This document shows, one piece after another, positions 28,844 to 42,509 of a DNA stretch of 64,000 nucleotides. The first letter of the stretch is position 1. Each line of letters begins with the position of its first letter. The stretch is taken from NCBI RefSeq assembly GCF_030848575.1, contig NZ_JAVDDX010000001.1, positions 62,001 to 126,000 of the forward strand. The letters run 5' to 3'. This stretch comes from Haloarcula sp. H-GB4 (lineage in GTDB: Archaea; Halobacteriota; Halobacteria; Halobacteriales; Haloarculaceae). The position numbers and the translations under genes were made by a program. Under the pieces are notes generated by a model, which was given only the letters and a program-made list of their open reading frames with translations, was not told where the DNA came from and ran no database searches.

Positions 28844-28935
28844 ATGACTCCACACGCCGACGAAGCACGGTTCGAAACATCGCGTACTGCTCTCCACGGG
28901 ACTGATGTGCATGGCACAGCGCGGAGGACACTGGA

Positions 28936-28939
<4 letters not shown>
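28844..28939 (+). CDS. putative leaderless 31-aa upstream ORF coupled to dgoD
   Basis: A 31-codon ORF that begins ATG ACT CCA and ends in TGA at 28937-28939, overlapping the dgoD ATG (28936-28938) as ATGA. Its ATG sits where transcription from the TATA box at 28815-28820 should begin. A GGAGG lies inside it, 8 bases before the dgoD ATG. The peptide is not related to DgoD and has no recognised motif, so it may work as a leader that couples or tunes dgoD translation. Confidence 0.45.
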
Positions 28940-30891: not shown

Positions 30892-31824
30892 TCAGACGTA
30901 GTGGAACCACTCTTCGCGGTCACCGCTCTCAATCACGTCGAAGAAAGCCGACTGAAGCTCGTCAGTGACCGGCCCCTTCGTCCCCTTGCCGATTTCGTTG
31001 TCGTCAACGCTCCGGATGGGGGTGACCTCCGCTGCCGTCCCGGTGAAGAACAGTTCGTCAGCGGTGTACAGTTCGCCACGGGAGATGGTCGCTTCTTCGT
31101 GGACGGTGTAGCCCATCTCTTCGGCGAGCGTGATTGCGGTGTTGCGGGTGATGCCTTCGAGGATGCTCTCGGCCAGCCCGGGTGTGTAGATTTCGCCGTC
31201 CCGGACCATGAAGATGTTCTCGCCCGGCCCTTCGGCGACGTTGCCCTCCTTGTTCAGGACGATGGCCTCGGTGTAGCCGTTGCGGCGAGCCTCCTCGCCG
31301 GCGAGCATACTGTTGACGTACAGGCCGGTCGTCTTGATGTTGGTCGGAATCTGGCTGGAGGCGTGCTTGCGCCAGGACGACACCATCACGTCGACGCCCT
31401 CCTCCAGCGCTTCCTCGCCCAGATACGCGCCCCACGGCCACGCTGCGATGGTGGTCTTCGTCGGGCAGTCTTTCGGACTCACGCCGAGCGAGTCGAAGCC
31501 GTAGTAGACGATGGGGCGGATATAACACGACTCGAACCCTTCCGTCTCGATGAGTTCTGTCGTCGCCTCGGTGAGTTCGTCTTTGCTGAACTCGATGTCG
31601 AGGTCGTAGGGTTTCGCGGACTTGTACAGGCGGTCTAAGTGTTCCTCCCAGCGGAAGATTGCCGGTCCCTGTTCAGTGTCGTAACAGCGAACACCCTCGA
31701 AAACGCCGGTCCCGTAGTGCAGCGCGTGCGTGAGAACGTGGGTCTGTGCGTCCTCGAAGTCGACGAACTCGCCGTCCATCCAGATACGGTCGGTTCCCTC
31801 GAACATCTCCGGACGGTCGCTCAT
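30892..31824 (-). CDS. ilvE: branched-chain amino acid aminotransferase
   Basis: A 310-residue class IV PLP aminotransferase that makes or breaks valine, leucine and isoleucine by exchange with glutamate. The PLP lysine is K164 in TNIKTTGLYVNS, followed by EARRNGYTEAI and GENIFMVR. The length is typical. The start is the ATG that overlaps the stop of a 25-codon upstream ORF (ATGA); GGAGG lies 9 bases before it. The frame extends further upstream but the added residues are basic and unlike the family. It converges with the DUF502 gene. Confidence 0.95.
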   Translation of the reverse strand: MSDRPEMFEGTDRIWMDGEFVDFEDAQTHVLTHALHYGTGVFEGVRCYDTEQGPAIFRWEEHLDRLYKSAKPYDLDIEFSKDELTEATTELIETEGFESCYIRPIVYYGFDSLGVSPKDCPTKTTIAAWPWGAYLGEEALEEGVDVMVSSWRKHASSQIPTNIKTTGLYVNSMLAGEEARRNGYTEAIVLNKEGNVAEGPGENIFMVRDGEIYTPGLAESILEGITRNTAITLAEEMGYTVHEEATISRGELYTADELFFTGTAAEVTPIRSVDDNEIGKGTKGPVTDELQSAFFDVIESGDREEWFHYV

Positions 31825-31898
31825 CGCACGACCCCTCCAGTGAGTTGCCAGTCGCGATGTCCGCGGGTGGTGCCTCCTGCTGTCTCGTCGTGTGTCAT
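31821..31898 (-). CDS. putative leaderless 25-aa upstream ORF coupled to ilvE
   Basis: A 25-codon ORF, ATG ACA CAC GAC at 31898, ends TGA at 31823-31821, overlapping the ilvE ATG (31824-31822) as ATGA. A GGAGG for ilvE lies inside it. It starts where the promoter at 31921-31926 should begin the RNA. The peptide has only a short Leu/Val cluster near its end. The design is the same as upstream of dgoD. Confidence 0.4.
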   Translation of the reverse strand: MTHDETAGGTTRGHRDWQLTGGVVR

Positions 31899-31920
31899 AT
31901 CTACCCCATTGATTCCCTTG

Positions 31921-31926
31921 GTTAAG
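31921..31926 (-). promoter_or_regulatory. TATA-like box for the ilvE leader ORF
   Basis: CTTAAC on the minus strand is centred about 25 bp before ATG 31898. It is the only TATA-like sequence I see within about 110 bp of the ilvE start. Confidence 0.35.
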
Positions 31927-32038
31927 AGTGTTGACGATACCCCCGCGGGTCAGGGTCGCGCTGCCTGACACATCCAGTACGGATCACTGTTCCCGTGAGC
32001 GCAAACGCTTTAGTGAAATCTGGTCGTCTGCACCGCAT

Positions 32039-32403: not shown

Positions 32404-33078
32404 TCAGTCGAAGCGCTCTAGCAGGCTGGCACCTTCGACGTACACGAGTCCCTCGCGGTCGGCGTAGGTCCGTGCTGCTGCCGGGGGTAGCGCTGCACCC
32501 GTCTCGTCGTCCAACATCTCACAGACCACGGCGGCCTCGGGTTGGTCGGCCGCGGTCGCGAGCGCGAGCGCGAGTTCGGTGTGACCTTCGCGGTCGGAAA
32601 GCCCGTCCGGAGCCGCGCGGAGGAGATGGACATGGCCCGGTGACCGGAAGGCATCGCTGAACGCGTCCGGGTCCGGGTCCGCCGCGACGGCGGCCAGTTC
32701 CCGGATGGTCAGCGAGCGGTCCTCGTCGGTGATGCCGGTAAAGGTATCGCGATGGTTCACCGTCAGCGAGAACGAGGAGCGCTCGTCGTACGCGAGGTCG
32801 TGGTCGGCCGCTGTCGGATGGTCGAGGACCTCCTGCATGAAGGGGAGTTCCAGCGCCTCGGCAACGTGGTCCGAGAGCGCGACGCAGACGAGGCCCCCGG
32901 CGTCGTTTCGCATCCGAGCGACGGCTTCGGGCGTGACGGCACCGGCCGGATAGACGAGGTCCGTCTCGCCCTCGCGGTCGGCGGCGTCGTGGATCAGCAC
33001 CGGCTCGCCCCGAGCGAATGCGGCGACGGCGTCGGCCACGCTGTCGGCGTCGGCAGCGGTTTCTTCACTCCGAGACAT
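32404..33078 (-). CDS. ribB: 3,4-dihydroxy-2-butanone-4-phosphate synthase
   Basis: A 224-residue RibB that converts ribulose 5-phosphate to the four-carbon unit of riboflavin, with release of formate. The acidic substrate loop [13 protein letters not shown] lies near 38-50, followed by [10 protein letters not shown] and [10 protein letters not shown], which contains the conserved His. The length is typical of the stand-alone enzyme. The start overlaps the end of the riboflavin kinase gene by 14 bp, so the two form one riboflavin operon. Confidence 0.95.
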
Positions 33079-33763
33079 GCACGATCACCTCGTCACCGTC
33101 GGCCAGTTCTAGCACGCCACGGAGCTTCTCGGGCGCGATCACTTCGAGTTGTTCCTCGCCGTGGTGGGTCCGCTCGGGGGCGATGACGTGGGCCGGCTCG
33201 TACTCGCCGTCGCTCCCCTCTATCGAGGCAGGGTAGCAGTACGCGGGGCCGTACGTCCGCTCGTCGTCCTCCCAGCCCTCAATGGTGACCGGCTCGATAG
33301 CGCTCATCCGCGCTCGCTTGCGGACGCTCTCGGCTGTGAGTTCGAGATTGAGCGTGCCCGCGAACGGCTCGTACCCCAGCCGTTCGATGAACTGCTCCAT
33401 GTAGCCCGGGAGCGTAATGTAGTGGCGACCCTCGCCCATCCCCGAGGTGACGACGCCGGTCAGATCGACGCTGGCGTCGGATTCGAAGATCCGTCGGTAG
33501 TCGGCGTATTCGGACTGGAGGCGTCGTTCACCGTCTCCGGTCAGTTCAACCTCTTGCCCGTCACTGACGATATCACGGGCCAGCAGCCCGGCGTCTTCGA
33601 GCCGCTGGAGCCGCCGCGAGGCGGTCTGGTTCGAGGCGTCCAGTCGTTCGGCGAGATCGGCACAAGACACCTTCGTCGACTCGTCGAGCGCACCGTCGAG
33701 GGCGAGCAGTTTTAGCGTCGCCAACTCGTCCCGACCGACGCCCTGTCCCATTGATTCAGCCAT
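33065..33763 (-). CDS. CTP-dependent riboflavin kinase fused to HTH regulator (RbkR type)
   Basis: A 232-residue bifunctional protein. Residues 1-95 make a winged helix domain ([20 protein letters not shown]) and residues 100-232 the archaeal DUF120 riboflavin kinase ([17 protein letters not shown], then FAGTLNLEL), which makes FMN from riboflavin with CTP. In archaea this fusion, RbkR, is known as a regulator of riboflavin genes. It shares an operon with ribB, which fits this role. ATG 33763 lies 27 bp after TATA-like GCTTATCC (33794-33787), and a palindrome lies next to it. Confidence 0.92.
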
Positions 33764-33786
33764 GCACTGCAGTAGGGATTCCCGCC

Positions 33787-33794
33787 GGATAAGC
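33787..33794 (-). promoter_or_regulatory. TATA-like box for the riboflavin kinase-ribB operon
   Basis: GCTTATCC on the minus strand is centred about 27 bp before ATG 33763, the spacing of a leaderless promoter. The palindrome at 33801-33822 covers the upstream BRE position. Confidence 0.45.
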
Positions 33795-33800
33795 ATACCG

Positions 33801-33822
33801 AAGGTGGAATGCATTCCACTTT
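33801..33822. promoter_or_regulatory. near-perfect 22-bp palindrome, putative RbkR operator
   Basis: GTGGAATGCATTCCAC at 33804-33819 is a perfect 16-bp palindrome; with the flanks it extends to 22 bp with one mismatched pair (33803/33820). It lies directly upstream of the TATA-like box of the operon that encodes an HTH-riboflavin kinase. Autoregulation by this protein is inferred from position. Confidence 0.6.
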
Positions 33823-33914
33823 TGGAACAGTAGAAAACTGGTACGGGGTTGGTAGCAGAAGCGCGTCTTACTGTTCCTGCTGGATACAATTTAAACCGCT
33901 GCCTAACACGTTCA

Positions 33915-41568: not shown

Positions 41569-42294
41569 CTATTCTGCGGCTTCTTCGACGGCTTCGCGCT
41601 CGTCCATCTCGGCCCGCAGCGCCGCCAGTTCGTTCTCGACGGCCCGTTCGCCGGAGAGGCGGTCGAGTTCCTGGTCGATTGAATCGCCCTCGTCGAGTAC
41701 GGATTCGAGCTGGCCGCTCGCTTCGAGTTCCTCCAGCGCGGCCGCACGTGCCTCCATCTGTTCCGTGCGCTCCGTGGCGCGTTCGATGGAGCGGTGTACA
41801 TCGGCCATCGTATCGCCAGCGCCGGTAAACGCCTCCGAGACCCGCGCCGACGCTTCGGCGGCCTGATAGCGAGCTTTCATCGTCTCTTTTTTCGTCCGGA
41901 ACTGTTCTATCTGGCTGCTGAGTTCGGCCCGCTTGCCGACCAGCCGGTCCTGTGTCTCTTGTAAGCCGTCTATCTGCCCTGTTAGCTCCGTTATCTGGCT
42001 GACGTTCACCTGCTTCTTTTCCAGCGCCCGGCGCGCGAGGTCGTCACGGCCCTCCTGCAGGGCGGCCCGGGCCTGCGTGTCGTGTTTCTCGACGTTCGAC
42101 CGCAACCGGGTTCGGTATATCTCCAGCCGTTTCTTCTGGGTCGTCACGTCGGCGATACCGCGCGTCACGTCCTGTAGTTCGCCCCGCATCTGTTCATATG
42201 AGTAGTCCAGTTCCGCCGCTGGGTCCGAGGTTCGGTTTAAGAGGGCGTTGAGCTTGGCACGGATAGCGAACGCGAACCGCTGGAGGAAGCTCAT
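41569..42294 (-). CDS. PspA/IM30 family membrane-remodelling protein
   Basis: A 241-residue, nearly all-helical coiled-coil protein of the PspA/Vipp1 family, which polymerises on stressed membranes. The N-terminal amphipathic helix FLQRFAFAIRAKLNALLNRT and the YSYEQMRGELQDV-like segment (YEQMRGELQDVTRG near 33-46) are typical. Long heptads follow to about residue 225. It is convergent with hemD. The upstream region (42340-42460) is AT-rich and probably holds its promoter. Confidence 0.9.
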   Translation of the reverse strand: MSFLQRFAFAIRAKLNALLNRTSDPAAELDYSYEQMRGELQDVTRGIADVTTQKKRLEIYRTRLRSNVEKHDTQARAALQEGRDDLARRALEKKQVNVSQITELTGQIDGLQETQDRLVGKRAELSSQIEQFRTKKETMKARYQAAEASARVSEAFTGAGDTMADVHRSIERATERTEQMEARAAALEELEASGQLESVLDEGDSIDQELDRLSGERAVENELAALRAEMDEREAVEEAAE

Positions 42295-42509
42295 CGGGAC
42301 CGCTCCGGCAGACAGATAACTCGATTCGGTTCCGACTGTGGCTCGGACGTGACAGCACTCATGTTATCTAGTATGAATGAACGCATTATAATAACAGGGT
42401 ACCACTCCGTTTAAGCCGAGTTTAATCCGCTAACATAACTGAGATCCGTGACTATCTGATCTTACTGTCTGGCTACTTGAGGGGTGCTGGGAGCAACGAA
42501 TACGTGAAG

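Follow-up and report, generated by a model that had tools for sequence, protein, structure and literature searches.

The closest precedent for the arrangement described here is, by analogy, the coupled leaderless small ORFs of mycobacteria. In these bacteria, 23 of 220 small leaderless ORFs terminate in RTGA, compared with 32 of 1000 random sites, and the coupled architecture has outlived the peptide sequence (Shell et al. 2015, PMC4633059). A second related system is found in Haloferax, where NTGA-overlapping gene pairs are strictly coupled and where the Shine-Dalgarno (SD) motif often assists reinitiation but, in 5' UTRs, does not drive initiation de novo (PMC6728339). In Haloferax volcanii, 72% of the mapped protein-coding transcripts are leaderless (Babski et al. 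2016, PMC4983044). Short ORFs have also been named as possible delivery devices in a recent review (PMC12548453).

The window analyzed here is the whole 64-kb stretch of the Haloarcula sp. H-GB4 genome, in which ilvE occupies positions 30892-31824 of the minus strand and encodes a branched-chain aminotransferase of 310 aa belonging to class IV (Pfam Aminotran_4). Its start is overlapped by a leader ORF (uORF; 31821-31898, minus strand) of 25 codons plus TGA, which is unannotated and whose translation is MTHDETAGGTTRGHRDWQLTGGVVR. The uORF start codon (31896-31898) is a predicted leaderless start, at or adjoining the 5' end of the transcript. Its context on the minus strand is ...CGTCAACACTCTTAACCAAGGGAATCAATGGGGTAGAT-ATG, and upstream of it lies the putative archaeal core promoter of the ilvE transcript (31921-31938, minus strand), composed of a BRE (..CGTCAACACT) and a TATA-like CTTAAC (31926-31921). 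A leaderless-promoter matrix built from 465 starts of this genome gave the uORF ATG a score of 7.3, the 95th percentile of all ATGs being 2.9. A GGAGG SD-like motif (31834-31838, minus strand) lies within the uORF, upstream of ilvE. The uORF ends in a TGA (31823-31821) that has two bases in common with the ilvE start codon (31824-31822), forming the sequence ATGA (31821-31824, minus strand).

A previous sequence-only reading had placed an ATG at 31898, about 25 bp past CTTAAC, opening a 25-codon ORF with GGAGG inside it and an ATGA overlap with ilvE, and each of these coordinates was confirmed. The like arrangement that it had reported for dgoD was also found: the leader ORF of this dgoD-like enolase-superfamily gene (28844-28939, plus strand) starts with an ATG at 28844, contains 31 codons and ends in ATGA at 28936-28939.

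The ilvE uORF shares several properties with the mycobacterial coupled ORFs (PMC4633059), namely a short unannotated ORF (25 codons, within the 5-50 aa range of small ORFs with an RTGA overlap with the downstream gene), enrichment of the design over controls and an architecture retained while the peptide diverges; the start is 5'-terminal in mycobacteria and, from promoter spacing and matrix score, may be so here. Ribosome delivery was proposed for those ORFs too (PMC4633059). For the mycobacterial ORFs, measured transcription starts and ribosome footprints are available, whereas the haloarchaeal transcription start is deduced from the promoter. The present case is archaeal instead of bacterial, its conservation can be traced over many species, and one can see that it probably derives from what was once the leaderless start of a gene. 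The NTGA overlap, an SD-like motif towards the 3' end of the upstream ORF and the haloarchaeal ribosome are shared with the termination-reinitiation pairs of Haloferax volcanii (Huber et al. 2019, PMC6728339; 2023, PMC10666635), and the ilvE overlap is of the type seen in such pairs (ATGA or TGATG). However, both members of those pairs are annotated genes, while the upstream partner of ilvE is an unannotated mini-ORF with an unconserved peptide. Short ORFs also occur upstream of Haloferax volcanii genes with long 5' UTRs; in the accessible part of that report (Babski et al. 2016, PMC4983044), they lie in UTRs of 150-250 nt and have a low isoelectric point, and the combination of a leaderless start with NTGA is not described. 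An archaeal description of the leaderless coupled class was not found in the open-access papers searched, although an earlier mention is possible.

We located ilvE in 148 of 148 genomes of the family and inspected the upstream DNA for about 90 of them. Overall, two types of ilvE were observed: genes with an N-terminus of MSDRPEM or similar (58 loci in nine genera), and genes beginning with MSFDEMDV or similar (31 loci). In MSDRPEM-type loci, an ATG was present at the fixed leaderless distance after the promoter element in 57 out of 58 cases. The uORF stop was located at +1, giving the NTGA overlap, in 55 of the 58 loci; it was found at +5, that is, 4 nt further on, in two (L058 and L067). In the remaining one, Halosimplex aquaticum (L023/L388), both the promoter and the uORF were lost. 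The overlapping uORFs ranged from 13 to 37 codons, with 15 different lengths; lengths therefore changed by multiples of three, and the distance from the uORF ATG to the ilvE start was 2 mod 3 in 55 of the 58 loci. A single NTGA overlap is unremarkable, since an exact overlap results in about 20% of cases when sequences are shuffled at random length. Nevertheless, its exact preservation across 15 uORF lengths exceeds chance expectation: although the loci are not independent, counting each genus only once still leaves a very low probability (0.2 to the ninth power, about 5e-7).

The uORF peptide was variable. Among the 14 distinct 25-codon sequences of the closest group, 14 of 19 variable codons changed the amino acid, and between genera the peptides were scarcely alignable beyond the first residues. 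Within Haloarcula, the first codons (MTHDE) were better conserved than the remainder, and some sequence constraint therefore persists in the uORF. An SD-like motif, defined as a match of 4-6 nt to GGAGGTGATC, was observed in 41 of the 58 relatives and was absent from the other 17. The promoter, the position of the ATG, the open frame and the overlap were thus directly observed to be conserved while the peptide diverged, so that here, too, the architecture has outlasted the peptide. This comparison indicates that the design is under selection, with position and frame retained and peptide and length largely free to vary.

To examine the start that the promoter serves, we applied the same matrix to the relatives. 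The uORF ATG scored above 4 in 98% of the 58 MSDRPEM-type loci, the ilvE start in 0%; a separate leaderless promoter for ilvE was rejected for this type (median score −9.1, none above 4). In MSFDEMDV-type loci, 87% scored above 4 at the ilvE ATG itself. In this type and in other families, the promoter stands directly before ilvE, with a spacing equal to that before the uORF, and the promoter of Haloarcula sp. H-GB4 thus has a counterpart at equal distance from an ATG in both relatives and outgroups. Most other haloarchaea have a leaderless ilvE without uORF; examples of this plain arrangement from other families are Halorubrum, Natrinema, Haladaptatus, Natronomonas and Halobacterium. This polarity is directly observed. 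Because promoter spacing and scores match those of the leaderless ilvE of other haloarchaea, the uORF start is most likely the former leaderless ilvE start. Moreover, some uORFs retain what appears to be the opening of the old protein (MGFDET and MSFDDG, versus MGFDEM and MSFDDM in outgroups).

Several loci deviated from this scheme. In L123, from a different family, a uORF beginning MYSAHRDV... terminates in ATGA before ilvE, an arrangement that was apparently acquired independently. The apparent uORF of Halocatena (L391) is likely a coincidence, ilvE having its own leaderless promoter there. In Halosimplex and two neighbouring genera (L020-L031, L028, L068), an additional TATAAA was present about 38 nt before ilvE; it could be a second promoter, giving a short-leader transcript without the uORF. 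Finally, L122 (G153, another family) contains an ilvE of the Haloarcula-like MGNRPEM type without uORF, for which transfer or independent loss is possible.

Taken together, the conserved anatomy, the coupling of NTGA pairs in Haloferax and the prevalence of leaderless transcripts lead us to propose, with a probability of roughly 0.8, that the uORF is a leaderless entry point that feeds ribosomes to ilvE by reinitiation. Transcription would begin at or adjoining the uORF ATG, giving an mRNA whose 5' end is AUG, and leaderless initiation would load ribosomes on this 5'-terminal codon. After 13-37 codons of no importance in themselves, the ribosomes would stop at the TGA of the NTGA and begin anew at the ilvE start overlapping it, presumably aided in many species by the SD-like motif inside the uORF. 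The transcription start, translation of the uORF and reinitiation at ilvE are inferred steps. As to origin, the 5' end of ilvE was probably enlarged while a new start (MSDRPEM) arose downstream, the former leaderless start being detached as that of the uORF. Several observations run counter to this delivery model: the 17 relatives without an SD-like match, although Haloferax can reinitiate without SD; Halosimplex aquaticum, which evidently manages ilvE without the uORF; the additional TATAAA of Halosimplex and its two neighbouring genera; and the better-conserved first codons (MTHDE) within Haloarcula.

The uORF might also be incidental, left open by GC-richness, with ilvE initiating alone via its SD on a 5' UTR of about 75 nt. 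The SD-like motif of 41 relatives and the frequency of NTGA overlaps in shuffled sequences agree with this explanation, but we consider it unlikely: 17 relatives have no such motif, in the 5' UTRs of Haloferax SD gives no initiation de novo (PMC6728339), and nine genera have kept the exact overlap, through 15 lengths, together with an ATG spaced as for a leaderless start. More difficult to separate from delivery is repression in the eukaryotic sense, in which most ribosomes would leave after the uORF and a fraction would reinitiate. This explanation agrees with all conservation data, and a one-step leaderless start has indeed been replaced by a two-step start; only the net effect distinguishes it from delivery. 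It nevertheless appears very unlikely, as the exact overlap, which couples tightly in Haloferax (PMC6728339), has been maintained and has not drifted.

Leader peptides of branched-chain amino acid operons are classical, and ilvE serves this metabolism; the uORF could thus be a regulatory leader peptide, acting by attenuation or stalling and sensing these amino acids or another signal. A short ORF ahead of a gene of amino acid metabolism does recall the attenuators of amino acid operons, but the ilvE uORF has neither their regulatory codons nor a special structure. Isoleucine, leucine and valine together made up only 7.3% of the residues of 57 distinct uORF peptides, the peptide is unconserved past its first codons, the fold of the leader RNA was no better than that of shuffled sequences (z = 0.04), and the like design precedes genes of unrelated pathways. 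Branched-chain attenuation was rejected, given this composition, with neither enrichment in regulating codons nor alternative RNA structures being found. A riboswitch or structured leader was rejected on the ordinary fold and on an Rfam search of the ilvE leader, which gave no match. We therefore regard a regulatory leader peptide as highly improbable. Least credible of all is a small protein with its own function. Such a protein would account for the conserved MTHDE start within Haloarcula, but not for the amino acid changes at 14 of the 19 variable codons or for peptides that can hardly be aligned between genera. In addition, the uORF composition is arginine-rich and not acidic, whereas haloarchaeal proteins are usually acidic. 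Overall, an entry device agrees better with the evidence than a regulated switch does.

To determine if the design recurs, we scanned 1.2 Mb of the Haloarcula sp. H-GB4 genome, in which 1107 genes were called by a codon-usage script, for ATGs with a promoter score of at least 6 opening a short ORF before a gene. Fourteen of the 28 promoter-driven short ORFs (50%) terminated in an NTGA overlap. One of these 14, at C1:575682, is probably a tRNA misread as an ORF (WVQIPP; by eye) and was discounted, leaving 13. The overlap was less frequent in the two controls, namely a promoter followed by a non-start triplet (94 of 466, 20%; p = 7e-4) and ATGs without promoter (71 of 272, 26%; p = 0.009). At a score cut-off of 8, 11 of 18 ORFs overlapped, versus 18% in the control (p = 2e-4). 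An SD-like motif preceded 6 of the 14 candidates and 4 of the 82 control overlaps. In 0.8 Mb of a 70% GC genome from a second family, that of loci L316-L345 below, enrichment was not significant, with four cases in all (3 of 4 versus a background of 41%; p = 0.19).

The design is thus a real recurring class in Haloarcula, where roughly 1% of genes have it, and two families share at least one instance. The sequence-only reading had suggested a general haloarchaeal mode of translational control and proposed an enrichment scan. The arrangement is indeed selected, recurs at unrelated genes, is enriched over both controls in this genome and is conserved within the genus at five other genes. "General", however, is too broad, as most haloarchaea have a plain leaderless ilvE and the scan of the second genome gave no significant enrichment, and the term "translational control" is unsupported by evidence that suits an entry device. 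Whether haloarchaea possess a widespread unannotated class of such ORFs is, in our opinion, evenly balanced. This class would form a distinct route of translation entry for SD-bearing leadered genes, by loading on a 5'-terminal AUG and reinitiation at NTGA, and could originate from a leaderless gene that acquires extra sequence directly behind its start while retaining the old start for ribosome entry.

Haloarchaeal genes with leaders pose a puzzle because SD motifs are inactive there for de novo initiation; a conserved leaderless mini-ORF passing the ribosome to the next start would resolve it simply, at least for some of these genes. The coupled leaderless design of mycobacteria would then have a counterpart in the other prokaryotic domain, where one can follow how a leaderless gene came to be fed by a uORF, and haloarchaeal gene-start annotation and expression design would be affected.

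Among the other genes with this design, the dgoD uORF, with 29-31 codons, kept its overlap in 11 of 13 close relatives. The uORF of a PspA/IM30-family gene starting at 42294 (42291-42362, minus strand; 23 codons, ATGA at 42294-42291) was conserved in 25 of 30 genus loci (12-23 codons; these and the following conservation counts were made by eye). With ilvE and dgoD, three cases lie within the window, a density above the genome average. Outside it, the uORF of a PurU-like formyltransferase gene (G000:C1:257435-257470, locus L232) was found in 29 of 30 genus loci, with 10-11 codons, and, in another family, in 23 of 30 loci (L316-L345), with 9-14 codons; the latter uORFs mostly contain a GGAGGTG-like motif. 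Similar uORFs preceded a luciferase-like (F420-type) oxidoreductase (23 of 26 genus loci, 10-48 codons) and a CbiH-like methylase (18 of 28 genus loci, 16-17 codons). Further unconfirmed candidates on G000:C1, named by eye, include genes for an acyl-CoA carboxylase-like protein (495018), a D-2-hydroxyacid dehydrogenase-like protein (805102), an EamA-like permease (1135906) and a large lipoprotein-like protein (238326), among others. We also observed, on the minus strand of the window, two ORFs with a 14-nt overlap (32404-33078 and 33065-33889) that resemble, by eye, a gene for riboflavin synthesis and the corresponding kinase/regulator, and which likely form an ordinary coupled pair.
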